Shown piece by piece: positions 20,636 through 61,862 of a DNA stretch of 64,000 nucleotides. Every line of letters starts with the position of its first letter. Position 1 is the first letter of the stretch. The notes under the pieces are model-generated. The model was not told the origin of the DNA. It did not search any database and saw nothing but the letters and a program-made list of their open reading frames with translations. The stretch spans positions 429,542-493,541 of the forward strand of contig NZ_GL476310.1 in NCBI RefSeq assembly GCF_000148725.1, in the 5' to 3' direction. This DNA comes from Roseibium sp. TrichSKD4 (GTDB lineage: Bacteria; Pseudomonadota; Alphaproteobacteria; Rhizobiales; Stappiaceae). A program made the position numbers and the translations under genes.

Positions 20636-20712
20636 GCACCGGTAGCTCAGCTGGATAGAGCACCAGACTACGAATCTGGGGGTCGGGGGTTCGAATCCTC
20701 CCCGGTGCGCCA
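20636..20712 (+). tRNA. tRNA-Arg(ACG)
   Basis: A full cloverleaf is visible. The acceptor is GCACCGG/CCGGTGC, the D arm has AGCTCAGCTGGATAGAGC, and the anticodon stem CCAGA/TCTGG surrounds the loop CTACGAA, which gives anticodon ACG (read as ICG). The T arm has GGTTCGAATCC, the discriminator is G, and CCA is encoded. The prophage right end lies within the 200 bases after it. The prophage is a Mu-type transposable phage, so the tRNA is probably a chance neighbour and not an attachment site. Confidence 0.97.
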
Positions 20713-20906
20713 CTAATTTCTTGATATATCTAACTTAATTTGAATGCGGAAAGCGCGCCGAAACTCGCTCTCCCGCTGTGTCGGCACCTGTAGCGCGCCA
20801 TTTTGTTTGGCAAAAAACGTCATTTCGAATGGCAACCATTTTTGGCTATTTTTGTGCCCCCTTTTAGAAAGGTTTTAAAGCCGTCTTAAATGGCGTTGAG
20901 CCGTCC
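20713..20906 (-). other. Right-end region of the Mu-like prophage, with phased TTTAAA-like boxes
   Basis: These 194 bases lie between the tRNA and the last phage gene and must contain the phage right end and the junction with the host. TTTAGA (20863), TTTAAA (20874) and CTTAAA (20885) are spaced 11 bases apart. Further out lies an AT-rich stretch (20811-20853) with repeated GGCAA/TTGCC and AATGG elements, of the kind in which transposase binding sites would be expected. Mu-type ends start with 5'-TG. TGTG at 20777 and TGTAGC at 20789 are candidates. The left end is outside the window, so the exact end cannot be fixed. Confidence 0.5.
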
Positions 20907-21539
20907 TCATGAATTCGAAATGATCCAGCCTGCGAAGTCCGCAAACCGGAACGCCTCAACAGCGGGTGCAATTTCAGCGGTGGAGACAGGACGTTGAACT
21001 CCTATCAGCCGCATTTCCTTCTCGGTGACCTCTGCCGGTGGTGCACCTGATTGCAGCTTATGGTGCCAAGTCAAACGGCTAAGGACGGTCCCCTCGTAAC
21101 CTGCGGCCGAGACGCATTTGTCGAATACGATAATTGCCCCGCCTGGACGAAGTTTCTCCCTCAGTCTCGCCATGAGTTCTTGCCGTTCCGCAACGGGTAA
21201 AAACATCAGGGTCAGGAAAAGGATTGCTACGTCGAATGGCTGGTAGTCATAGGCCGTTGCATCGGCGGTGATTGCTTCTCCGGGGGCTTGGTAAGCCCGG
21301 ATCATATCTGCACATTCATCCAGTGCTATGAGCCGCGCTTTGCGCTCCAATAATACCCCGTTGAGGTTTCGACCCATGTTCCCGGTCGAACATCCGATAT
21401 CGTAGATCAAGCCACCCTTTGGGATGTAGTGCTTGGCAATCAGAACCGCCGCATCTGTCGCCAGTTCGTACCAGGGCAGTTGTTCGCGGACGTGCCGGTC
21501 AAATTCATCGTGAAAACCCTTGAAGGTCCAATCGCTCAT
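20907..21539 (-). CDS. CmoA-like class I methyltransferase (putative carboxy-SAM synthase-like), last gene of the Com operon
   Basis: The 210-residue Rossmann-fold protein has motif I IYDIGCSTGNMG (residues 45-56) and the acidic IALDECADMI (71-80). It then has a run of features that parallels E. coli CmoA: LTLMFLPVAERQELMARL, LRPGGAIIVFDK, and WHHKLQSG followed by EVTEKE. CmoA makes carboxy-S-adenosylmethionine from SAM and prephenate, used in tRNA wobble uridine modification. The ATG overlaps the ParB-methyltransferase stop by four bases and has a strong GGAGG site, so the two are coupled. I infer a role in phage DNA modification from position. It could instead be an ordinary methyltransferase. 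Nothing else follows before the phage end. Confidence 0.72.
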   Translation of the reverse strand: MSDWTFKGFHDEFDRHVREQLPWYELATDAAVLIAKHYIPKGGLIYDIGCSTGNMGRNLNGVLLERKARLIALDECADMIRAYQAPGEAITADATAYDYQPFDVAILFLTLMFLPVAERQELMARLREKLRPGGAIIVFDKCVSAAGYEGTVLSRLTWHHKLQSGAPPAEVTEKEMRLIGVQRPVSTAEIAPAVEAFRFADFAGWIISNS

Positions 21540-23011
21540 AACTGGACCTCCAACCGTTTTTCAAACGCCTGGATTGCCTCGCAAACAAGACCCATGCGCC
21601 CGCCGGGATAAGGTAGGTCAAACTCAAATGACAAGGCATCGACGAGCGCCTTCCGGTCAATCTGCAGCGGCTTGGAACATATCGCCGTTACATTGTTGAT
21701 GTGCACCCCGATCTCCACCGAGCCAAACCGTTGTTTAAACAAGCGTTCAAATTCACTTGGCTGAAAGAACTTCTGGATCTTCGGCGCATCGTTCAATTCA
21801 GAAACGGCGGTTCCCGGCTCATCCTTTAAGATAAATCGCGCACTGCGGGCCGCTGTTGTTCCTAAGCCAATACCAACCGAGCACTCCCGCCAATTAGGGT
21901 CTTTGCAGGATCTTGCAGCGGCATAAAGGACAGTTTCAGGTGAAGCCAGCGCTGCACATATGGTGACTATGTGATCGCGGTCGCCGGGAAAGGGTACAGA
22001 GTTCAAGACGCTGGCAAGGAAAATACTGGAATAGGTTTGGCCCTCAGCCACCGTTTTGAGGAACCTTCGAGCAGTACGGCGACCCGCCTTCACACAAGGT
22101 TTTTGACCATTTGACTTGTAAGGCTCGAAGGTTGTTACTTTCAGCCCGATCTTGCGCAGTATCTTTGCCTCGTCACCGTGCCCAGCTCCAAAGTCCAGAA
22201 CGCGCGAGCCGTACAGGCTACGCATTCGGGCCGCTTCACGTCCGGGCGAGAAGTCCTTGCACCGCCCGGCACCCAGCGCAAATAGGAAACCGCTCCCGAG
22301 CGAAGTCCGTCTTTGGCGACTACGCCGATAGGCATTGGACCTAAGAATGTCGCGAAAGGGTTCCGAAAACTGAAAATCCATACTCAGCCGGTTAAGCGCA
22401 AACGCGACAAGATCAGGATCAATCGAACTATCCAGAACCACACAATCAATTTCCGCCTCTTGACGCGCCGAGGCATCCTGAAGGCGGCCTATGCCGTTGA
22501 TCACTTCACCTTCAGCCGAGACAATGATGGGCATTTGAAAACCGTAGCTTGCCAGCTGCCGGGCTGCGTTAGCTGCATAGCGCTCGAACTTTTCAAAGTT
22601 CAACGTCAACAATTCCGGCACAGAGCGCCGTTCTGTGATCAGACACGGGTAGCGATTTTCAGTATCAGAAAGTGACGCCAGTTGTTTGAGCAAGTCAGCC
22701 GCGGAGATCCGGCTGTGATCGATATCTGTCAGGGCAAAATCATTTGTTGCCCTATTGAACGTCAGGTTCGCGCCAGCTGTGTCGCAACCGTTTTTCTGCC
22801 CAATCACAACAGGAACAAGCCAGCCAAGATCATCAGCGGCCGTTGACCGTTGATGTCCCGACAACAACATGCGTTCAGAAGTGGCATAGATAGGTAGGAG
22901 AAAGCCGAACTTTTGCAGAGAAAGGCGGATAAGTTCCAGGCGATCAGGATCTGTCTCGCGCGGATTACGAGTGTCCCCGTGAAGGGACGATGGGGCGACA
23001 AGTTCAATCAA
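21536..23011 (-). CDS. Fusion of two ParB-like domains with a SAM methyltransferase domain, putative DNA-modifying enzyme
   Basis: The protein has about 491 residues. Domain 1 (about 10-75) has the ParB fold pattern with LLSGHQRSTAA. Domain 2 (about 135-195) repeats it with VINGIGRLQDAS. From about 270 a class I methyltransferase domain begins (RVLDFGAGHGDEA), followed by TTFEPY and SIFLASVLNSVPFPGDR. ParB-like domains bind nucleotides and DNA, so the fusion suggests that the methyltransferase acts on DNA. The likely start is TTG at 23009-23011, seven bases after GGGGAGG. The TTG at 23017 is too close to that site. A poor start codon suits translational control by Com. The gene occupies the place of mom in Mu. 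Target base and product are unknown. Confidence 0.72.
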   Translation of the reverse strand: MIELVAPSSLHGDTRNPRETDPDRLELIRLSLQKFGFLLPIYATSERMLLSGHQRSTAADDLGWLVPVVIGQKNGCDTAGANLTFNRATNDFALTDIDHSRISAADLLKQLASLSDTENRYPCLITERRSVPELLTLNFEKFERYAANAARQLASYGFQMPIIVSAEGEVINGIGRLQDASARQEAEIDCVVLDSSIDPDLVAFALNRLSMDFQFSEPFRDILRSNAYRRSRQRRTSLGSGFLFALGAGRCKDFSPGREAARMRSLYGSRVLDFGAGHGDEAKILRKIGLKVTTFEPYKSNGQKPCVKAGRRTARRFLKTVAEGQTYSSIFLASVLNSVPFPGDRDHIVTICAALASPETVLYAAARSCKDPNWRECSVGIGLGTTAARSARFILKDEPGTAVSELNDAPKIQKFFQPSEFERLFKQRFGSVEIGVHINNVTAICSKPLQIDRKALVDALSFEFDLPYPGGRMGLVCEAIQAFEKRLEVQL

Positions 23012-23201
23012 TTCCAAGCCTCCCCTTGATTTCTGCGATTACATCATCGCGTGCAAAGCCAACGCTTGCGTTGAGCTGCCGCTCCCAATCCTCGAACCGC
23101 TTGCGATCAACGAGGAAACTGTGCGGTCCAATCCGAATGGTGGCCATCGGAGCGGTGGAGCACACGTCATAGTCCTTTAAGGGCTGAGTTTTCTTGCCCA
23201 T
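23004..23201 (-). CDS. Small protein of unknown function in the Com operon
   Basis: This 65-residue protein begins inside the end of com (overlap 35 bases) and ends inside the start of the ParB-methyltransferase gene. It has no membrane segment and I recognise no domain. The middle (MATIRIGPHSFLVDRKRFEDW) looks like a small beta-strand and helix fold. The nested arrangement between com and the modification gene suggests translational coupling, so it may be a cofactor, a leader for coupling, or both. Confidence 0.6.
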   Translation of the reverse strand: MGKKTQPLKDYDVCSTAPMATIRIGPHSFLVDRKRFEDWERQLNASVGFARDDVIAEIKGRLGID

Positions 23202-23370
23202 CTTTAAAGCCTTTCAGGGTGCGCTCGCTCGGGCGCTCTGGAAGGGGCTCAACCGGCCTCAAACTGTTCATCGTGCCACATCGTGGGCACTTGACCTCGA
23301 CTGTGCCGCGAATGGCGGCGGGTTCTGACTTCATCAAAAGCTTGCGGCACCTGCCACATCGAATTTCCTG
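23167..23370 (-). CDS. com: Com-like zinc-finger translational activator
   Basis: The 67-residue protein starts MQEIRCGRCRKLLMKSE and continues with VEVKCPRCGTMN. This is two CxxC knuckles and the same pattern as phage Mu Com, which opens with IRCxxCxKLL and has IxCPRC. Mu Com binds the mom mRNA leader and turns on its translation late in infection. Here the C-terminal half is Pro/Glu/Arg rich. The gene is in the same place as in Mu, next to the phage right end and upstream of predicted DNA-modification genes. ATG at 23368-23370 was chosen over upstream starts because homology begins there. The ribosome binding site is weak. Confidence 0.85.
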   Translation of the reverse strand, partial: QEIRCGRCRKLLMKSEPAAIRGTVEVKCPRCGTMNSLRPVEPLPERPSERTLKGFKDGQENSALKGL

Positions 23371-23524
23371 CATGACAACCGTCTGCCGACTCAGCCACAC
23401 TGCACTTGCCCGCGCGGGCAGCGGGTGCGGCGGTTATCCTCATTTACTGTCGGGCGGGTTCACGTTTTGCGACACCAGATCCCGCCGTCCGGACTTTCGG
23501 GTCCGGACCACCCGTGTCTCTTTC
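23371..23524 (-). promoter_or_regulatory. Leader/promoter region upstream of com with two perfect palindromes
   Basis: It lies between a small phage gene and com. GCCCGCGCGGGC (23408-23419) is a perfect 12-base palindrome. GTCCGGAC at 23487-23494 and again at 23501-23508, six bases apart, forms a perfect hairpin and is also itself palindromic. Neither is followed by a T run, so they look more like operators or mRNA structure than terminators. Mu com-mom is regulated at this place by transcription factors and DNA methylation. Control here is inferred by analogy only. Confidence 0.4.
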
Positions 23525-41918: not shown

Positions 41919-42818
41919 TTAGTTAAGAGCGGACTGGATTTGGCTGCCCACGCGCCGTGCAACCCGGCGCAAGGTTTTCTCGGTTCGCCTGTCAATCGAG
42001 CCTTTGACCAAATAAAGCTTGGCCTGCATCTTGTAGCTGTCCGTGCAGCCGAAAAAACAGCTGGTCAGGTTGGACGTGATCCCGTTTGACGGAACCCCCA
42101 CGGACACCAGAAGCGGATCTCCGGCAAGATCGACCGCATCATCAACATCACCGTCATTCATCGCGCCAATACGGAGCTTTTTGGAAAGATAACTGTTGGC
42201 CTCCGACAAGGCCCGGTTTGCCTTTATACCCGTCACCAGAAGGATTGCATCCACTTCCCCTTGAGCGAGTGCTTCCAAAGCAAACTCCGGATCATCATGT
42301 TCACTGGCAATGCGGACCGCGCCATAGTCATCATCTTCAGCAACAAGGTTCGCCCAGGTCTGAACGGCTCCGGAAAAGTCCGGATCGCCGAGAACAATGG
42401 AGGCTTCCTTGCCATAGCTTTCCAGATCATCCAGTTCACCCACCTTGCCATCCCGGTTGACCAGGAGGATCAGGTATTCTTCGTGAAGCGAGGCGACGGT
42501 TACAAACTCTCGTGCAGAGGCTGGGTCATTGCGTTTCAAGTTGACCATGGCGTCGGGCTGAGAAACGAGCACATTGCATTCGCCGCGCAAAGCCCGGCTG
42601 ATATTGCCGAGCGAGCCGCCCGTATCGACAAGCACCTCAGACGTGATCTTTTCTTTTGCCAGACTGTCGGCAATGGCCTTGGCGGCAAGATAGTAGCTAC
42701 CGCCATCGGTGCCCGAGCATATTGATATCGGTGGCTTGAGGTCTTGGGCAAATGCGCTTGGGAGGCAGATGGCTATCAAGCCGGTAAGGGCGGAAATAAG
42801 AAAAAGATTACGTTTCAT
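41919..42818 (-). CDS. TAXI-type (TRAP) periplasmic solute-binding protein encoded within the phage head operon
   Basis: The 299-residue protein has an N-terminal signal peptide (MKRNLFLISALTGLIAICLP, cut after SAFA). It then has the TAXI-family pattern ICSGTDGGSYYLAAKAIADSL and LVDTGGSLGNISRALRGECNVLVSQPDAM. TAXI proteins bind ligands such as glutamate for TRAP transporters. No transporter membrane subunits are near. The gene lies between gpT and gp35-like genes, has a good ribosome binding site (GGAG) and overlaps the 61-aa membrane protein gene. A host protein gene carried by the phage (moron) is the likely explanation. It may alter the lysogen's envelope or exclude other phages. Confidence 0.8.
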   Translation of the reverse strand: MKRNLFLISALTGLIAICLPSAFAQDLKPPISICSGTDGGSYYLAAKAIADSLAKEKITSEVLVDTGGSLGNISRALRGECNVLVSQPDAMVNLKRNDPASAREFVTVASLHEEYLILLVNRDGKVGELDDLESYGKEASIVLGDPDFSGAVQTWANLVAEDDDYGAVRIASEHDDPEFALEALAQGEVDAILLVTGIKANRALSEANSYLSKKLRIGAMNDGDVDDAVDLAGDPLLVSVGVPSNGITSNLTSCFFGCTDSYKMQAKLYLVKGSIDRRTEKTLRRVARRVGSQIQSALN

Positions 42819-43072: not shown

Positions 43073-43972
43073 TCAGCTGGAGAGCCACGGGCAAACTTCG
43101 ACCTTGCACTTGTTGCGGTGCGGGTTCGGCTTGCCGTTTTCAAACTTTTCGACGCTCATCAGGATATTGGCTGCATCTTCAAGCGAAGGCGGAACCATGA
43201 GGATATTCGGCTGAATGGTCAGCTTGGTCCCGTAGTCGCCTTCTTGCGACTTCATGGCCGTGTAAACCTTGGCGAAGTTGTCAGGCGTGAACTCTTCCTT
43301 GGACGCAAAGGCCAATTGCCAGAAACCGTACCCGGCGGCCTCGCGGGTCTTTGCCCCATAGACAACTTCGTCCAGCATGAAGACGCGCTCGGAATTGATG
43401 TCGGTCATGGCGTTGAAGACCGGCTTTTGGCGAACCTGTCGCACAAGCGGCTTTAAAGAACGGGTTGTGTCGAACAAATACCAGGCAGGCTTGTCACCGG
43501 CCCAGAAGTTGGAGACGGACTTTTCCTTGCCTTCCTCGTCCAGAACCGGATGATCGGTATCAAAGAAGTTCTGACCGTCATAGCACTCGGCAGAGAACCC
43601 AAGTTCCAGCGCTTCAAAGATCAGCTTGTCAGGATGACGGGCAACGCCATTGCCCAAACCTTCCATGCGCGGCTTGTAGATCCCCAGATTGTCATCGGCC
43701 AAATCATCAAGCTTGAAGGCAACCGTCAATTCGAACTTGCGGTTCTTGATCCGGTAATCATGAGACCCGAGCTGGCGGATGACACGCTCGCCGATCCACT
43801 CCCGCATTCCCGGAAACTCGCCAAGCCAGCCATATTCATTGGCCGTGGTGGTTGAGGGAACTTCCGTGGCAATGGTCGGCCACATCGGCTTGTGCTGATC
43901 AAAGCCCTGCTGATAGTTGCGGCGAAAGCCAATCCCCGCCGTGCGCAGGTTTTCGAGTGTAAAGTCAGCCAT
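43073..43972 (-). CDS. T: Major head protein gpT
   Basis: The 299-residue major capsid protein opens with LENLRTAGIGFRRNYQQGFDQHKPMWPTIATEVPSTTTANEYGWLGEFPGMREWIGER, the signature of Mu gpT. It also has the DDLADDNLGIYKPRMEGLG segment and, near the end, PNILMVPPSLEDAANIL. The N-terminal part should be cut by the phage protease only if a delta domain is present, and none is obvious. Ends agree with Mu gpT size. Confidence 0.94.
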   Translation of the reverse strand: MADFTLENLRTAGIGFRRNYQQGFDQHKPMWPTIATEVPSTTTANEYGWLGEFPGMREWIGERVIRQLGSHDYRIKNRKFELTVAFKLDDLADDNLGIYKPRMEGLGNGVARHPDKLIFEALELGFSAECYDGQNFFDTDHPVLDEEGKEKSVSNFWAGDKPAWYLFDTTRSLKPLVRQVRQKPVFNAMTDINSERVFMLDEVVYGAKTREAAGYGFWQLAFASKEEFTPDNFAKVYTAMKSQEGDYGTKLTIQPNILMVPPSLEDAANILMSVEKFENGKPNPHRNKCKVEVCPWLSS

Positions 43973-46024: not shown

Positions 46025-47251
46025 CTAGTTCCTGTCTTCTTCCGGTACGGTTCGCAAAAGCGGCCCGCGCTTTTGGTAGAACTTCAGCTGGTTCGAATTT
46101 GTGCGCCGGAAGGACTTCAGGAAGATTTCTCTCCCGTCTTTTGTCACCCTGAAAAGCGCCCGCCACCAAACTCCATCTATGAGCGCGCTTGCTGCAAAGT
46201 CATTCGCTTTTGGTTCTGCACTCAAGTCGCGCCGGATCTCGCCCACATCAAGGCTCCGCTGAACAAGCTGATAGATATCGGCATCAAGATCGGCCCGCTT
46301 ACCAATCTGCTTTGCCGCATCGGCAGTTGAGAAAAACGCCGTGCGCGTGGTGGCCCCAATCTTTTCCGCAATCGTCTCCGGCACCATGGCAACAGGGGCA
46401 AATACAGGCTTGCCGGCAAGCGCCCCCGACTGAACACGGCGGAACATCTGCGAGCCGACCAGATCGGTAATCGCCGCGCGCCGGATATGAGGCGGGGCGG
46501 TATCCAGTTTGCCCGAAAGATGATTTGCCAATGTCCGGTGACGTGACTTGCCGGGATTGGTCTGCCAGCCCGGATCGATCCCCTCAGGGATTTGATGCAC
46601 CGAGCCATCCCGCTTGTTCACCCATTGCCGGGTCGGAATATCCGGCGTCTCGCTGACACCGCCCAGGCTATCGGCTTCGGCTTGGGTGATCTGGCGAACC
46701 CAGCACACACAGCCCCAGCCATTGGGCGGCATCCATGTATCCCAGAAGGGATGATCAATGGGGAGGATGGTGTTTTCCCGAGCGACATGGTGCGGGCGAT
46801 GTTCGCGCGCAACGCCCAGCCGATACACCAGATAGGGCAAGGCGTGCTTGGTCCGCTGGAACCGTGTCCACTTTCCCGCCGCCATGGCAGAGCGGGTATT
46901 AGCCCAATAAATCGTCTTTAAACGCCGGTTGCTGCCCAGCTGAACAGTTTCGAGGTCGCCGGTCTTTGGATCAATCCGATCCGCCTTGCCCCACCACCCC
47001 ATGCTTTTGAGCTTTGGAGAAAGCTGCTTTTTAAAATCCTCAAACGTCGCCCCTGTTCGAATGGCTTTTTCAACCGCTTCATGAAGCTCGGTTAAAACGG
47101 CGACTTGATCCGCTTTGGCGACCGTAAAAGCATAGGCGTGTTCTTCCCCATGAAGATCCTGCCAGTGATAAGACGGTTTTAAGGTCTTGCCGTCCAGATA
47201 ACTCAGAACCTCAGGAGCCGGTCCCTTGCCAAATCGAAACCGGTCAGCCAT
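46025..47251 (-). CDS. F: Mu gpF-like minor head/head morphogenesis protein
   Basis: The 408-residue protein has the Mu F/SPP1 gp7 pattern: YHWQDLHGEEHAYAFTVAKADQVAVL, IYWANTRSAMAAGKWTRFQRTKHALPYLVYRLGVAREHRPHHVAREN, and WDTWMPPNGWGCVCWVRQIT. It is needed for head assembly and may be injected with the DNA. It overlaps the portal gene by eight bases. Confidence 0.9.
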   Translation of the reverse strand: MADRFRFGKGPAPEVLSYLDGKTLKPSYHWQDLHGEEHAYAFTVAKADQVAVLTELHEAVEKAIRTGATFEDFKKQLSPKLKSMGWWGKADRIDPKTGDLETVQLGSNRRLKTIYWANTRSAMAAGKWTRFQRTKHALPYLVYRLGVAREHRPHHVARENTILPIDHPFWDTWMPPNGWGCVCWVRQITQAEADSLGGVSETPDIPTRQWVNKRDGSVHQIPEGIDPGWQTNPGKSRHRTLANHLSGKLDTAPPHIRRAAITDLVGSQMFRRVQSGALAGKPVFAPVAMVPETIAEKIGATTRTAFFSTADAAKQIGKRADLDADIYQLVQRSLDVGEIRRDLSAEPKANDFAASALIDGVWWRALFRVTKDGREIFLKSFRRTNSNQLKFYQKRGPLLRTVPEEDRN

Positions 47252-48827
47252 CAGACTTGTCGTCGCCTAGGGCGCGGGCCTTGAGTGTGGCAGCGGCAAG
47301 CGCATCAGTAAGCGGTCCCACATCCTGATCTGCGAACAAGCTATCGAGACCGGCCGCAAACGTTTCAAGGCTATCGGAGTTTTCCAAAAGGCGGTGGATC
47401 GGTTCCAGCATCGGATCGCCCTGAAGCCGGTAATCCTTGAGGGCGTGGGCCATGATTTCGGCAAGGTCATCACCCTCGCTGCCGTGGTCATGATGCTCCC
47501 GGTTCAGTGCCTTCTTGTCGGGCTTGTCCTTTTCCTCGTCTTCTTCTTCGTCGCTGTCACTATCTGACTTTTCAGGTGCTCCACCGATGGTCTCTTCCCT
47601 TTCGCCCGGTTCGTCATAACCGAACTTGTCCCGCACCTGCCGCGCCGACAATCTGACGCCAACCTTGTGAAGCCGTTCCAGAACCTTGCTCTCAAGGTCC
47701 AGATCCTCCGGCTCATCCGGTTCCAGCTTGAACCGGGGGAAACCATCCAGCTGACCGAAGTTGATCAGACAATAGGGAATGATCAAATCCCGGTTGATCG
47801 TGAACGCCAACTGGCGTCCATCAGCCTTCATGATATCTGTGCGCACCCGGTCATGAACTTCTGCCTGACCAAGCGATGACCCGTCATCCGTGGTCATGGT
47901 CTGGCCCAAAACAGCCTTTGACATGGCTCCGTCCAGATACTCGGCAAAATCCTTGAAGACAGGACCGCCAGACGTTTTCGCCTGGATCAGTTCCATTTGC
48001 ATGCTGTCAGGAATGATGGCCGCTGCATCCCTTGCTATGGATCGCACGGCCCGCAAGAGTGCCTTCTTGTCCTTGTCGTTCGCGCCCTTGCCGTATTTGC
48101 CGAGGCGAAGCGGTTGGCCGAAGATTTCACAAAAGGCCGCCCAGTCCTTGATCGTGTAGCTTTTCAGCATCCATGACCAGACCGCAAGACGGGCAAGCCC
48201 GCCACGGATCGGCAAGCCTGATTTGATTTGCGGTTTATGGACAAGATAGCGCCACGGTTGAAGCTCGATCCCTTCAGGAAGGTTGGCCTCTTTCAGGCGA
48301 ACCTCACGGCGGGTTTTCTTGTCAAAGGTCAACCAACGCGGATCCACCCGCTCAAAGGTTTCCGGGACAACACGGGACGGGTTATCGGTGTTCCAGCTGA
48401 TCTCTATTGCAGACACGCCCTTGCCAAGCGCATCAAGCAAATCCCCGAGCATCAGCCCGAAAGTGGGATTGTCCAGAATGTCCTCGCGGACCTGTTCGGC
48501 AATCTTCACGTCGTCCGGATCTTCACTTGCCGCCTGTATCTCCGGCTCAATCCCCAAAAGCGCAAGTTTGCGGGTGGCAATGACGGACCCATAGTGGCCG
48601 TCCCGCTCTTCCATTTCTTCGGCAAGGATAAAGAACTCGGCCGGATCGCCTTCGACAGCCTCCCGCAAAACCCCGGCGAGCTTTTCCGGGGTGATGTAGG
48701 TGGCAACCTCATCATGAAGAACCGTGCGCGGCCCGCTCTCTTCTGCCGTTGCAATCGGATTGCTTAGCGCACCGAGTTTCAACGCCTTTTGAACCGCCTT
48801 TAAAGGGGATTTAAAAACACTCACCAT
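47244..48827 (-). CDS. Portal protein (DUF935, Mu gp29-like)
   Basis: This 527-residue portal subunit forms the DNA entry ring of the head. It has the DUF935 pattern: ITPEKLAGVLREAVEGDPAEFFILAEEMEERDGHYGSVIATRKLALLG, then RGGLARLAVWSWMLKSYTIKDWAAFCEIFGQPLRLGKYG. The C-terminus has an acidic low-complexity region (SDSDEEEDEEKD) and ends in a helical part. The N-terminal Lys-rich start (VFKSPLKAVQKALKLG) codes the 11-base phased TTTnAA array. Confidence 0.9.
   Translation of the reverse strand: MVSVFKSPLKAVQKALKLGALSNPIATAEESGPRTVLHDEVATYITPEKLAGVLREAVEGDPAEFFILAEEMEERDGHYGSVIATRKLALLGIEPEIQAASEDPDDVKIAEQVREDILDNPTFGLMLGDLLDALGKGVSAIEISWNTDNPSRVVPETFERVDPRWLTFDKKTRREVRLKEANLPEGIELQPWRYLVHKPQIKSGLPIRGGLARLAVWSWMLKSYTIKDWAAFCEIFGQPLRLGKYGKGANDKDKKALLRAVRSIARDAAAIIPDSMQMELIQAKTSGGPVFKDFAEYLDGAMSKAVLGQTMTTDDGSSLGQAEVHDRVRTDIMKADGRQLAFTINRDLIIPYCLINFGQLDGFPRFKLEPDEPEDLDLESKVLERLHKVGVRLSARQVRDKFGYDEPGEREETIGGAPEKSDSDSDEEEDEEKDKPDKKALNREHHDHGSEGDDLAEIMAHALKDYRLQGDPMLEPIHRLLENSDSLETFAAGLDSLFADQDVGPLTDALAAATLKARALGDDKSDG
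48777..48815. repeat. Four TTTnAA boxes at exact 11-base steps
   Basis: TTTCAA (48777), TTTGAA (48788), TTTAAA (48799) and TTTAAA (48810) in the portal start. GC-rich 5-base spacers separate them. An amphipathic helix coded here could produce the same period. Confidence 0.45.
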
Positions 48828-54185: not shown

Positions 54186-54590
54186 ATGCCAAGAAAATTG
54201 AGAGGCAGTGACGGGCGAGATATTGCCATTCCAGACGGTGGGCGCGGCCTTCAGGGGAGCGATGGAAGAATGGTAGCCATTCCAAAAGGCGGGCGCGGCC
54301 TTCAGGGGAGCGATGGAAGAATGGTAGCCATTCCAAAAGGCGGGCGCGGCCTTCAGGGAAGCGATGGAAGGATGGTAGCCATTCCAAAAGGCGGGCGAGG
54401 CCTTCAGGGGAGCGATGGAAGAATGGTAGCCATTCCAGAAGGCGGACGGGGTGTACAAGGTAGCGACGGGCGTATGGTAGCTATTCCCGCAAATTGCCGA
54501 GCTGTTCAAGGTAGTGATGGACGTATGGTCGCCATTCACCCAGGAAAACAGGCTGTGCAGGATTCAAAAGGACGTATGCGAAACAAATAA
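54186..54590 (+). CDS. Tandem-repeat protein (17-residue repeats), opposite to the phage operons
   Basis: The 134-residue protein consists of about 7.6 copies of a 17-residue unit with consensus LQGSDGRMVAIPKGGRG. The middle units are nearly identical and the last two have drifted (NCRA, GKQA). A short polar start and a basic end (MRNK) frame the array. It is on the plus strand, has AGGGTG six bases before the ATG and converges with the Mor-like gene, so it may be expressed in the lysogen. It has no signal peptide, membrane helix or known domain. Gly/Asp turns and alternating hydrophobics suggest a beta-repeat fold. The opposite strand also has an open frame, so coding is likely but not certain. 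Confidence 0.55.
   Translation: MPRKLRGSDGRDIAIPDGGRGLQGSDGRMVAIPKGGRGLQGSDGRMVAIPKGGRGLQGSDGRMVAIPKGGRGLQGSDGRMVAIPEGGRGVQGSDGRMVAIPANCRAVQGSDGRMVAIHPGKQAVQDSKGRMRNK
54198..54587 (+). repeat. 51-bp tandem repeat array, about 7.6 units
   Basis: Units start at 54198, 54249, 54300, 54351, 54402, 54453, 54504 and 54555 (partial). Units 2-4 are almost identical. Each contains the inverted repeat GAATGGTAGCCATTC or a near copy. The array could therefore also be a set of protein-binding sites. Confidence 0.85.
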
Positions 54591-58203: not shown

Positions 58204-58841
58204 GCCGCCAGCTCCTCTGCAACCGGCGTGCCCATAACCTTTTTCAAGTTGGCGTCATAAACAACCTTGGTGGAAAGGATTTTCGGAGGCTTGGGCCCGG
58301 TGTTCATGGACGCCTTTAATCGCCATATTTGGGCAATCGAACCGCGACCCTTTCTCATGATTTGCAGATAGCCTGCATCACTGAGAAAGCTGACATACTT
58401 CTTGGCCGTGGAACGGGGCACCTCAATCTCTGGGGTTGAGGACAGCAGCGCCAATTCCTGAAGGTCAAACTGCGACAGGATGCGGATGGTGCGCCAGAGA
58501 TTGCGCTGAGCTAAGCCTTGTGTGCCGCGTGTGCCATCGCGGTTGATGATCGGGGTGACGGACGGGCGCTTTAAGAGCCGGTAAACGTTGTGAGTGTGGT
58601 ATCCGCCATGAGGGAAGGGGGCGGTGATCTGGTCAACCACTTCTACAAAATTGGCGGCAAGCAACCGTTTTAGGAAGTCGCCGATGGCGCGGTCGTTGCG
58701 ATCATTGCTGCGCAGCCCGATTTCCCGTTTGGTGAAGTGCGCACCGTTCTTGCCAAGCTCCCGGATGACACTCCAATAGTGATCATGGCCCCGGTAAATC
58801 GGCTTTGACGCAGTGACCCGCATTTCAAGCTGGATTGACAT
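58200..58841 (-). CDS. Winged-helix-like early phage protein
   Basis: The protein has about 213 residues (58844 is an alternative start). It has two helix-turn-helix-like segments: HYWSVIRELGKNGAHFTKREIGLRS and EIEVPRSTAKKYVSFLSDAGYLQIMRKG. Between them lies a basic linker. Such duplications are common in phage replication and regulatory proteins. It follows MuB directly (ATGATG overlap). Confidence 0.58.
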   Translation of the reverse strand: MSIQLEMRVTASKPIYRGHDHYWSVIRELGKNGAHFTKREIGLRSNDRNDRAIGDFLKRLLAANFVEVVDQITAPFPHGGYHTHNVYRLLKRPSVTPIINRDGTRGTQGLAQRNLWRTIRILSQFDLQELALLSSTPEIEVPRSTAKKYVSFLSDAGYLQIMRKGRGSIAQIWRLKASMNTGPKPPKILSTKVVYDANLKKVMGTPVAEELAA

Positions 58842-59611
58842 CATGCGGCCCTCTTTGCTGTCCGGCCAGTCGGCTTGCCGGTGTAGAAAAAGTTCTCGTT
58901 GAAATCGGCGAAGGTGTAGGTCGTCTGGCGCGTGTTGCGCGCGTGTTCCTTGATCCGGTTCAAGTTGACCGTGATCCGCCGCGCCCTGCCGCCAGACTTT
59001 TCAATCAAGCCGTCAATCAGGCAGTCGCTCAATTCCAGCTGGTCGCAGATGAGGCCAGCCAGCAGGCCGGCGTCCTCGAAATCACACTTTTCCGCAGGCA
59101 CCCATTCCAGGACCCGGTTATGGACCCGCTCCACCCGCTCAAGTTTGGCGGGGAGGTTCTCCTCGCCGATCAAAAGAAGGGCGACCCGGCTCTGGTCCTG
59201 AATTTCCCGGACAAGTTCCAGCATGCCCTTGTCGGCCAGCTTGTCCGCTTCATCAATAATGAGAGGGCGATCAACCGTGTCGCTTAGAACGTCAATGACC
59301 TGTTCGGTGAGATCGGAAACAGAGCCGCGTGAGGGAACGTTGTCTTCTTTCTCAATTGCTTCGTGCAGAATCTTGAGAAGAAGCTTTTTGCGCGTCCAGC
59401 TGTCGCCAACCTCCACGACACGGGCTTGGGTCATGTTGGCTGCCAAGGCCGCCGCATAGGTTTTGCCGTAGCCCGAATACCCGTGGAACACGCCAATGCC
59501 CGGCATGTTTGGTCCTCTTCCCAAAACTGTTTCCACAAGCGTGACAAAACGAAACACGTTTTTGAGGTTGACCATTCCAAGGGAGTTGACGGGAGAGCCG
59601 CCGTTTGTCAT
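58841..59611 (-). CDS. B: MuB-like transposition ATPase
   Basis: The 256-residue AAA+ protein starts at ATG 59609-59611 after GGAG. Walker A GYSGYGKT lies at 44-51, Walker B LIIDEADKL at 117-125, and arginine-rich ends. It binds target DNA, stimulates MuA and protects the phage from self-integration. It is shorter than Mu B (312 aa) and lacks part of the N-terminal DNA-binding region. An upstream in-frame extension to 59785 overlaps MuA and is rejected. Confidence 0.92.
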   Translation of the reverse strand: MTNGGSPVNSLGMVNLKNVFRFVTLVETVLGRGPNMPGIGVFHGYSGYGKTYAAALAANMTQARVVEVGDSWTRKKLLLKILHEAIEKEDNVPSRGSVSDLTEQVIDVLSDTVDRPLIIDEADKLADKGMLELVREIQDQSRVALLLIGEENLPAKLERVERVHNRVLEWVPAEKCDFEDAGLLAGLICDQLELSDCLIDGLIEKSGGRARRITVNLNRIKEHARNTRQTTYTFADFNENFFYTGKPTGRTAKRAA

Positions 59612-59645
59612 TTTGAAAGTCTCCTTAAATCGAAAATCCGATTGA

Positions 59646-59672
59646 CCCTGGCGCGGCAACGCCGGGGTTTTT
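59646..59672 (+). terminator. Terminator-like hairpin between A and B, in antisense orientation
   Basis: CCCTGGCG (59646-59653) pairs with CGCCGGGG (59660-59667, one GU) around CGGCAA and is followed by TTTTT on the plus strand. The genes run on the minus strand, so it would stop antisense transcription. In the A-B mRNA it would be only a hairpin. Confidence 0.55.
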
Positions 59673-59681
59673 CTTTGCCCA

Positions 59682-61862
59682 TCAGGACGCGGGCGGTACG
59701 CTTGTTTTTTGCCCTCCCATTTGATTGAGCATCTTGTGAGCGCGGTATTCCGCACCGCTCTGGTAGTTGACCAGCCAGAGAGCATCGTCCTCGCAAAGGG
59801 ACGCGCCTTCTGCGATCCGCGCTTCCAGCGTCATGGCGCGGGAGAACCGTCGCTCGGGTGTTTCCTGTCTTGCGATTGAGTGAACGCTGGCGCTCTTGCC
59901 GCCTGGAGCCTGTCCCGGCTGTTCAGCCGCCCGCATGCGCTCCATGACCTCTTGCTCTTTTTGAGAGAGAGGACGCGGGCCGCGCTTTGCCTTCGCACTA
60001 CCTGCCGCCTGCATCTTGGCCGTTGAATGCTCGCCCCGCTCTTTCGGGAACGGCACTACATCGCCGTTGTGTTTGTAGCGTTCGCGGCGCGCATCCATCA
60101 CAGTGCGTGGTGTGATCTTGCGCAGCTCTTTTTTGATATCGGCGGTTTTTTCATCATGAAGTGCCTTTTGACGTTCCTTCATGCGGGCAGCGATCTCGGC
60201 CCGGTCCACGCCTGCCAGATCAGGGCAGACGGCTTCGCCGAGATAGGTTTCTCCCTCAGGGTCAAACAGCCACAAACGACCTTGATCAGCAGGGTCTTCG
60301 CGGCACAAAACCTCTTCGCCAGCGGGAACGTCGAACGTGACGTATTTCTCGTTATCGTGACGAATGCCCTCTTTTGTCACTGTGCGAATACCGTTCTTGC
60401 CCGCAATCGGTGCAAGTAGAACATCAAGGGCCGCTTCGTTCTGAATACCCCGGATCTCACCTTTCCAGTCTTGGGCAAGCTCAAAAGGTGTTTTGCCCTT
60501 GAGACGGGAGTGCTTCTTGTGCGCATAAATCTGGTTGGTCCAGAAATCGGCATGCTCTTGCAGCTCGTTTGCCGACAGGTCCACATGAAACATTTTGGCG
60601 TCGTCAGTCCCAAGGCGGCTGGAGAATGCCTTGCGGGCTTCGATCTTCTTGCGGTCAGCGACCGAGTGACCGACAAAGCCGGGCAAGGTAGCCGCGCAAT
60701 CGCGCTGGAAGGTTCCGATAACCCGCTCAACCGAACCCTTTTTCTCCGGCGAGTAAGGCGGTGAAAGCTCTTGCTCAATATCAAGCGCGTCCAGCAGTTT
60801 GACGGTCGCCTTGGCGGTAAAATCCGACCCATTATCGGTCTTGATGAGTTCGGGAACGCCCCAACCGATGAGGCACTTGCGAATAAGAAGGCCGACAGCC
60901 GAGGCTCGCGGTGTCTTTGTCACCAGAAGAATGATGCGGCGGGAATAAAGGTCGATTGCCATATAGATGTTCATGCGACCGTCAGTGGTCATTACATCTG
61001 AGGGCGAAGCGTCGATCTCCCAGATCTGGTTCAACCGGTCGGCTGAATGTGCACCCGCCATGGAAAAGCGGACTTTGGATTTCCACGCATCCGGGTTCGT
61101 GATCTTGAGAAGCTCGTTTCTGTTTTCCTGCTTCCACTGTTTAAGTGCCCTTTGAAACGTCCTTAAAGGGGGCATGGATTTGCGGACCTGACCGCGTGTT
61201 GTCTCCAGAAGAACGCTTTCGCCAAACTCAACTATGGCCGTGTCCCGGATGTGTTCAGCGGTCAGAAAATCGTTATGGGCGACAAGGGCCAGACAATAGG
61301 ACTTGAGCCGTCCGTCTTCGGCCCGGTCCAGCACTCCGGTTCCCTTGCGCACCTTGGATGGATCATTGGCAAGCGAGCTGGCATCGCTCGCCTTTGCATC
61401 GCGCCACCTTGCTAGTGTGCGGGTTGAAAGTCGTCTGACAGCGCCGCGCACCCATTCCGGCACGGGAACCTTGCCCGCCAGATAAAGACGGACAAAGAGA
61501 TCATCCGCGCCGGTTGCGCCCATGGAACTTGTTTTGCGGAACCGTTCGGCCACCCGCAGGATGATGAGCCGCGCATCGCGGGCCTCGCGCTCGGTGCCGT
61601 TCAAGGTTTCGTCGTAATCGGTCAGGCAGTCGGCCTGTTCAACACGAACAAAGCGGCTGGTGTAATCCAGCCTTTGTGGCAGCGGCAGCAAACTTAAATG
61701 ATATTCAAACCCGCCGCCGCCATCGCGGCCCTCGCGCTTGCGACACAGATCGCACTCCTGCCAACCGTCCCGATCAATGATCTTTTGAACACCGCGCTTG
61801 GTCACCGGAAAGCCTTCCAGTTGAAGATCGGCCAGTTCTTGAGCGGTCAGCCAAAGTTTCAT
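59682..61862 (-). CDS. A: MuA-like DDE transposase
   Basis: The 726-residue transposase carries out replicative and integrative transposition of the phage. The N-terminal Mu-type DNA-binding domain (WLTAQELADLQLEGFPVTKRGVQKI) is followed by the DDE core. Asp284 lies in IWEIDAS, Asp343 in IKTDNGSDF and Glu379 in KKGSVERV. The C-terminal part has the Mu_transpos_C beta domain (KYVTFDVPAGEEVLCRED) and a basic end that contacts MuB. The length is a little above Mu A (663). Confidence 0.95.
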   Translation of the reverse strand: MKLWLTAQELADLQLEGFPVTKRGVQKIIDRDGWQECDLCRKREGRDGGGGFEYHLSLLPLPQRLDYTSRFVRVEQADCLTDYDETLNGTEREARDARLIILRVAERFRKTSSMGATGADDLFVRLYLAGKVPVPEWVRGAVRRLSTRTLARWRDAKASDASSLANDPSKVRKGTGVLDRAEDGRLKSYCLALVAHNDFLTAEHIRDTAIVEFGESVLLETTRGQVRKSMPPLRTFQRALKQWKQENRNELLKITNPDAWKSKVRFSMAGAHSADRLNQIWEIDASPSDVMTTDGRMNIYMAIDLYSRRIILLVTKTPRASAVGLLIRKCLIGWGVPELIKTDNGSDFTAKATVKLLDALDIEQELSPPYSPEKKGSVERVIGTFQRDCAATLPGFVGHSVADRKKIEARKAFSSRLGTDDAKMFHVDLSANELQEHADFWTNQIYAHKKHSRLKGKTPFELAQDWKGEIRGIQNEAALDVLLAPIAGKNGIRTVTKEGIRHDNEKYVTFDVPAGEEVLCREDPADQGRLWLFDPEGETYLGEAVCPDLAGVDRAEIAARMKERQKALHDEKTADIKKELRKITPRTVMDARRERYKHNGDVVPFPKERGEHSTAKMQAAGSAKAKRGPRPLSQKEQEVMERMRAAEQPGQAPGGKSASVHSIARQETPERRFSRAMTLEARIAEGASLCEDDALWLVNYQSGAEYRAHKMLNQMGGQKTSVPPAS

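Follow-up and report, generated by a model that had tools for sequence, protein, structure and literature searches.

A Com-led cassette of a Mu-like Roseibium prophage pairs a CmoA-like gene with a ParB-ParB-methyltransferase fusion, a candidate DNA carboxymethyltransferase

The 64,000-nt stretch of Roseibium sp. TrichSKD4 analyzed here (contig NZ_GL476310.1; hereafter the window) contains a Mu-like prophage on the minus strand, whose last genes, at its right end, are com, a 65-amino-acid gene (p65), a ParB-ParB-methyltransferase fusion and a CmoA-like gene, all on the same strand. We propose, with a probability of roughly two in three, that this cassette is a Com-controlled DNA carboxymethylation module that would depend on carboxy-S-adenosylmethionine (Cx-SAM) and use a new, non-C5 transferase, its chemistry and target base being predictions. 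That it is a DNA-modification system with chemistry unlike Mom's is very probable. A first-pass annotation of this DNA had suggested an undescribed, non-Mom modification pathway; position and partners uphold a Com-led, non-Mom cassette, but it is not wholly undescribed, as CmoA together with a DNA transferase has already been published (PMC12783734), and it is the transferase that looks new. The annotation had also overlooked what a CmoA-like gene implies, namely Cx-SAM.

In Synechococcus phage S-B43, CmoA makes Cx-SAM, the C5-methyltransferase homolog CmoX generates 5-carboxymethylcytosine in DNA, and CmoY is a ligase (PMC12783734, December 2025). CmoX carries Arg350 where HhaI has Asn304, and a preliminary search in the same work turned up no enzyme linked to phage CmoA that might carboxymethylate adenine N6 or cytosine N4 (PMC12783734). 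Like the CmoA-CmoX-CmoY system of S-B43, the window cassette places a phage CmoA-family gene beside a (predicted) DNA-directed transferase; the window CmoA belongs to a clade with many CmoX-paired members, and ParB-domain neighbors have been reported for CmoA-CmoX-CmoY too (PMC12783734). The transferases themselves differ, that of the window being a ParB-ParB-class I methyltransferase fusion and that of S-B43 a C5-methyltransferase with SPPC and Arg350. Unlike S-B43, the fusion loci we surveyed show no match to the amide ligase CmoY, and they possess a p65 subunit of their own and, in many cases, a HAD-like gene.

Fusion loci were detected with our own hidden Markov model thresholds in genome contigs (29, all of them), viral contigs (2 plus the best 80 of 247) and phage records (three of the 14 that matched). 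Strong matches (E < 1e-100) comprise 98 loci in 27 clusters at 80% identity, and 17 weaker ones were set apart. The 98 include the partial genes L020, L024 and L025 as well as duplicates between IMG/VR and genome re-fetches (e.g. L002, L045 and L132 of the window's relative); clustered figures are safer than locus counts, and scans that keep the best matches are samples nearest to their queries. These loci lie on 82 viral contigs, in 3 phage records, in this prophage and on 12 bacterial genome contigs, prophage or otherwise; the named phages with a fusion are Gordonia phage Evaa, Pseudomonas phage PA_L9 (Samunavirus) and Aeromonas phage HJ05. A CmoA-like gene is present in 93 of the 98, always on the same strand as the fusion, and the five loci lacking it (L001, L024, L025, L043, L044) are on contigs that all end no more than 3 nt from the fusion. 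The first-pass annotation would have counted it against its proposal if the fusion had mainly occurred outside phages and apart from com, in a different known role; what we found are mostly viral loci, nearly all with CmoA.

The fusion and CmoX appear to be alternatives. No C5-methyltransferase matched in the whole records of Evaa, PA_L9 and HJ05, the window contains no such open reading frame at E < 1e-8, and PF00145 is without a match in a 43-kb IMG/VR relative of the prophage. In the seven fusion loci with a C5 gene in their flank, motif X reads GN every time, as in ordinary methylases, and not GR. A scan centered on CmoA (alignment A3) kept the best 80 of 581 matches, which, minus three already-sampled loci, gave 77 new ones: 63 have a C5-methyltransferase, all with the motif X Arg that is the Cx-SAM-binding signature of CmoX, 10 have the fusion, and none has both. 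The remaining four are a fusion fragment at a contig edge (L175), a locus with a ligase only (L146) and two in which CmoA lies near the contig start (L148, L182). In the same scan, CmoY-like ligases accompany 23 of the 63 CmoX loci and none of the 10 fusion loci. Around SpCmoA (best 80 of 280), a C5-methyltransferase occurs in 67 of 80 loci and the fusion in none. Two CmoA-adjacent C5-methyltransferases of staphylococcal phages (L007:4681-5679 and L010:5497-6504) read VVGGVINQ, lacking the GR motif of other CmoX genes; judging by this sequence, their binding of Cx-SAM may be different or absent.

Both partners draw on one CmoA lineage. A careful tree of 33 window-type CmoAs (13 linked to the fusion, 18 to CmoX, 2 unlabelled) requires at least six partner changes, with 15 of 30 inner branches open; its groups were named from partner genes rather than from the tree, and the label of L135, set by hand, equals the automatic one. 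Fusion-linked CmoAs as a single clade were rejected by an approximately unbiased test (p = 1.7e-10). A quick tree with more sequences (54 rows) needs at least nine changes, 23 of its 51 inner branches being open, and its starred pairs join different partners, such as Evaa (fusion) and Streptomyces phage TurkishDelight (CmoX). Because a single origin of the fusion-linked CmoAs is rejected, the transferase partners of CmoA have been swapped repeatedly, and the simplest reading is that one product, Cx-SAM, serves two alternative transferases.

A second companion of the fusion is the p65 domain, which we searched with a profile built from five p65 proteins, leaving out of the count the com-led loci behind the profile and their re-fetches. 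Of the fusion loci, 83 of the 86 with upstream DNA have the domain (the misses are L004, L005 and L025), as do 7 of the 10 with only a short upstream stretch; the profile finds it in none of the 134 CmoX loci and none of 43 other loci. It stands at the C-terminal end in 89 of 91 cases, and its carrier is the protein directly upstream of the fusion, a ParB protein by neighbor clustering (with a PF02195 match in the example L049). The 65-residue protein, present as the first-pass annotation had said but given no role there, is thus not arbitrary: since its domain is so regular in fusion loci and missing from CmoX loci, p65 is a minimal form of a fusion-specific subunit and no stray open reading frame.

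Many fusion loci also carry a HAD-like protein, PHROG_32036, which matched in 89 of 111 loci and 17 of 27 clusters (e.g. L055:9422-9928 and L003:2636-3115); the 111 loci, used for this count and for the residue counts below, include L124-L126, apparently re-fetches of L016, L014 and L015. Its gene lies between the fusion and cmoA in 88 of the 90 loci with a match. It is absent from the com-led group of fusion loci, from all 134 CmoX loci and from the 17 CmoA-free loci described below, the sole match in that set being the fragment L175. HAD proteins usually have DxDxT as motif I; here the motif is D-L-[NH]-Y-T, which is atypical of phosphatases, and the protein has no match in the PDB at E up to 1.

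The fusion itself matches PHROG_5475, a family of unknown function, from residue 10 to 490 (profile positions 9-457 of 458). Its first ParB/Srx-like domain is matched by PHROG_620 (6.7e-17) and by the ParB part of PADLOC MTase_II (residues 3-93), and a profile built from the fusion family finds ParB/Noc structures over the N-terminal part (5e-8). In the second, diverged domain, N174, G175 and R178 are invariant across 94 distinct rows. Pfam ParB (PF02195) gives no match in the fusion at E up to 1, but the N-terminal part is recognized by ParB-like PHROGs, in several cases over two stretches, and two CmoA-free homologs (L027 and L028) pass PF02195. A search with the AlphaFold model places a generic class I methyltransferase fold over residues ~214-453 of the C-terminal half, where the alignment shows the motifs DFGAG, EPY, VLNSVPFxxDR and PKxQK. 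Neither SPPC nor an Arg350-type motif X is present, so this is no CmoX-type C5-methyltransferase. Motif IV of the (D/N/S)PP(Y/F/W) type is also missing, with VLNSVPFxxDR in that region, PF01555 and PF02086 are unmatched, and CmoB is not among the sequence and fold matches listed. Translation more likely starts at the second TTG (23011, MIELV...), because AAGGGGAGG lies ~7 nt upstream and several homologs begin with MIEL or MIKL. In four Pseudomonas phage records (OL343755, OL473897, OL622073, OQ383211) the fusion gene is annotated as a tail fiber protein, very probably a misannotation.

Four basic residues, R226, R232, R347 and K413, are fixed in all 94 distinct rows of CmoA-linked fusions. 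In the 17 CmoA-free rows, none of the positions of R231, R232, R347 and K413 is basic, and at R226 there are 16 Q and one K (L028). R347 and K413 do occur in L175, the 18th row of this set, but L175 is a contig-edge fragment of a CmoA-linked fusion. The branches are distant, so that 58 columns pass this filter, and CmoAs also keep an Arg after motif IV. From the alignment, the four residues are the first to consider for holding the Cx-SAM carboxylate, as a list of leads only; they would be counterparts of Arg350 of CmoX and, in CmoB, of Lys91, Tyr200 and Arg315 (for CmoB, PMC4482062).

The CmoA-like protein matches PHROG_4752, labelled 'tRNA methyltransferase', at 2.1e-42; the corresponding values for the CmoAs of PA_L9 and HJ05 are 1e-64 and 3.5e-46. 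Its AlphaFold2 model (AF2; mean predicted local distance difference test score, pLDDT, 93.1) has the CmoA fold: the best Foldseek matches are E. coli CmoA structures 4iwn and 4gek (E 2e-15, template modeling score 0.83-0.86), with the CysG and BelI methyltransferases close behind. Its best match in phage records, 47% identical, is in Moraxella phage Mcat8, where it adjoins a CmoX-type C5-methyltransferase with SPPC and GRMV. None of the three genomes carrying com-led cassettes has a CmoA above the TIGR00740 cut-off, a strict one that only 1 of 14 control genomes reaches; if these hosts do lack CmoA, this would be why the phage brings its own. The Stappia genome has, besides the prophage copy, a CmoA-like match of 127.7 bits (below the cut-off) and two weaker ones. 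That 127.7-bit gene is stronger than the prophage copy (contig 6 of the assembly) and sits on another contig.

Several observations weigh against a Cx-SAM-dependent DNA carboxymethyltransferase. The CmoA-like protein scores 55.2 bits against TIGR00740 (8e-15), below the equivalog cut-off of 193.3, and it has E at the column of Arg199, which contacts the Cx-SAM carboxylate in E. coli CmoA. Because the biochemically proven SpCmoA also has E there, Arg199 is not diagnostic for phage CmoAs and we dropped it as a catalytic-residue argument; phage CmoAs apparently have a basic residue somewhere in this segment, its position varying among them. With the (D/N/S)PP(Y/F/W) motif missing, a nitrogen target is, from the sequence, not proven either. 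A full-text literature search, with most subscription papers and bioRxiv outside its reach, returned no modified base in fusion phages, and PMC12783734 was the only work in it on natural DNA carboxymethylation as a subject. Finally, the 17 weaker fusion homologs (L026-L042), mostly from Streptomyces, have neither a CmoA-like gene nor a p65 domain in the DNA fetched around them. These proteins share with the window fusion the ParB-ParB-methyltransferase layout and a C-terminal EF[DN][LM]PYP-like motif; unlike the CmoA-linked fusions, they lack R232, R347 and K413, and they are possibly ordinary prophage DNA methyltransferases. By eye, a gene downstream of them is terminase-like in 7 of 17 loci, and one is portal-like in 7.

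The best-placed alternative is that both enzymes use plain S-adenosylmethionine (SAM), the fusion methylating DNA and the CmoA-like protein serving as a second methyltransferase, with no Cx-SAM involved. The low TIGR00740 score, the closeness of CysG and BelI in fold and the very existence of CmoA-free homologs all speak for it. We nevertheless consider it improbable: this CmoA lineage has CmoX as a recurrent partner, and the CmoX of S-B43 is proven to be Cx-SAM-specific (PMC12783734). A second methyltransferase that is nearly obligate would also be hard to explain.

If the CmoA-like protein does make Cx-SAM, the acceptor is indicated by the setting in which the cassette is found. As the first-pass annotation stated, com is clear, passing the gathering cut-off of Pfam Zn_ribbon_Com (PF10122; 46.7 bits against 22.9, E 2.2e-12) and matching PHROG_6417 at 2.1e-14; the paired CxxC knuckles (C6, C9, C29, C32) are invariant in five com genes. 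Its statement that no Mom-like acetyltransferase is visible also holds, as Pfam shows no acetyltransferase (Mom-like or GNAT) family in com, p65, the fusion or cmoA at E up to 1. We kept the best 80 of 378 viral-contig relatives of Com and classified the gene in the slot beside each by its best tblastn match to representatives, some of which were run against Pfam. The slot contains C5-methyltransferases and N6_N4_Mtases (24 loci each), Dam-type D12 enzymes (15), ATPase-GNAT (Mom-like) proteins (8), the fusion (3) and other genes (5); the truncated locus L363 has no gene there. With a DNA methyltransferase (63) or GNAT/Mom-like protein (8) in 71 of 80 loci, the Com slot is a swappable DNA-modification cassette, and for that reason we take DNA to be the probable acceptor of the fusion here. 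The association does not run the other way: com leads only 4 of the 27 fusion clusters (the window's own Roseibium cluster, Stappia, Allorhizobium and L046), so the repeated tie to com that the annotation had proposed looking for is not the rule, and the fusion is not mainly a companion of com. In the eight GNAT/Mom-like loci (L310:4804-5955 and seven others within L289-L368), an ATPase-like N-terminal part, with GPSGSGKS identified by eye, is joined to the GNAT/Mom-like domain.

These data also bear on an RNA acceptor, the idea being that CmoA makes Cx-SAM but that the substrate of the fusion is RNA, such as tRNA, or some other molecule in place of DNA. CmoA/CmoB chemistry classically acts on tRNA (PMC4482062), and in VIA the top match of the fusion is the tRNA enzyme METTL6. 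The E. coli pathway of wobble carboxymethylation would share with the window cassette a CmoA-made Cx-SAM donor and differs in that the window fusion has no CmoB match among its listed sequence and fold hits and has a predicted DNA acceptor. Given the ParB-like domains of the fusion, the DNA-modification genes of the Com slot and a CmoA partner shared with the DNA enzyme CmoX, we regard an RNA acceptor as unlikely, slightly more so than the use of plain SAM. Less likely again is that the fusion acts on a carboxymethyl base supplied by an unseen or host enzyme, as in a CmoM-like methyl ester step. Its generic methyltransferase fold would allow this, but no C5-methyltransferase was found in the whole records of the three fusion phages or in the prophage's relative, so such a pathway would miss its first enzyme in unrelated hosts. 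Counter-defense by SAM depletion, a question posed for investigation in PMC12783734 in which CmoA would drain SAM with the fusion as a bystander, is highly implausible, as it leaves the near-obligate co-occurrence of CmoA with the fusion and p65 unexplained.

A DNA carboxymethylation module would then work as follows. Expressed late, under presumed control by Com, the CmoA-like enzyme would convert SAM and prephenate to Cx-SAM. The fusion, aided by the p65 adapter domain, would bind DNA through its ParB-like part and move the carboxymethyl group from Cx-SAM to a DNA base, at a site that does not call for the C5-methyltransferase chemistry of CmoX and is most likely a nitrogen; the modified base may shield phage DNA from restriction. 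Cytosine C5 is an unlikely target because the Cys/SPPC chemistry is missing from the fusion. The product of Mom is the amide of N6-carboxymethyladenine. Because of this, and because many enzymes of the Com slot are amino methylases, adenine N6 is by analogy our favored guess. Like Com-Mom of phage Mu, the window cassette has com first at the right end of a Mu-like phage and is predicted to modify DNA late; were the product N6-carboxymethyladenine, it would be the acid of Mom's product, and the differences would lie in the lack of a Mom/GNAT match and in the predicted Cx-SAM chemistry.

The fusion family is one candidate for the N6/N4 carboxymethyltransferase missing from the search in PMC12783734. 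The broader claim, that it founds a second class of Cx-SAM-using DNA carboxymethyltransferases whose target is not cytosine C5, adenine N6 being the most exciting option, is tentative, and we would put it at somewhat under even odds. If it is true, natural DNA carboxymethylation extends beyond cytosine C5, and the Com/Mom control logic of Mu becomes tied to a newly discovered DNA-modification cofactor. Were the target adenine N6, a Mu-like phage that shares the Com regulator with Mu would have found an unrelated path to the acid counterpart of the base made by Mom, closing the gap that PMC12783734 points out. The proposal gives PHROG_5475 a predicted function and suggests another meaning for PHROG_4752 than its tRNA label; a carboxyl handle at a new DNA position could also be a useful labelling tool.

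The prophage was recognized by its Mu-transposase C-terminal domain, Mu portal and gpT head protein (Table 1). Consistent with the first-pass description of four overlapping genes at a Mu-like right end, each of the four cassette genes overlaps its successor. Weak TTG starts, offered there as a sign of Com control, make a poor argument that we dropped, as an ATG start is possible for com, p65 and cmoA, leaving the fusion as the only one of the four without. Similarity to a Roseibium sediminis prophage (93% over 113 nt) ends near window position 20887, ~20 nt past the cmoA stop, and a tRNA-Arg gene lies beyond this right end at 20636-20712.

Table 1. Cassette genes, domains of the fusion and prophage landmarks in the window
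Feature	Position	Strand	Basis
com, zinc-ribbon translational regulator, first cassette gene	23167..23373	minus	PF10122, PHROG_6417
p65, the C-terminal ~48-aa domain of the ParB-containing subunit as a separate gene	23004..23201	minus	p65-like domain counts
ParB-ParB-methyltransferase fusion (PHROG_5475)	21536..23017	minus	PHROG_5475 2.7e-83; AF2 pLDDT 88.3
First ParB/Srx-like domain of the fusion, ~residues 4-93; LSGHQR, FNRxTND	22739..23008	minus	
Second, diverged ParB-like domain, ~residues 150-210; NGIGR	22388..22570	minus	PHROG_18056 stretch 150-210
Class I SAM-dependent transferase domain, ~residues 264-450	21668..22228	minus	Pfam Methyltransf_23 1.2e-6
CmoA-like predicted Cx-SAM synthase, last cassette gene	20907..21539	minus	TIGR00740 8e-15, below cut-off
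Approximate right end of prophage	20887..20906	no strand	Roseibium sediminis prophage similarity ends there
gpT head protein	43073..43972	minus	
Mu portal	47244..48827	minus	
AAA/TniB-type ATPase	58841..59785	minus	
Mu-transposase C-terminal domain	59682..61862	minus	

Two further genes of the prophage region stand out. An NMT1/TAXI-like solute-binding protein gene (41919-42818, minus strand), whose start by eye resembles a signal peptide, lies amid the head genes and is possibly a cargo gene. On the plus strand, opposite to the phage genes around it, an open reading frame at 54186-54590 with a DUF3640 match is made up of 51-bp tandem repeats (5.2 copies) with the unit GSDGRMVAIPKGGRGLQ.

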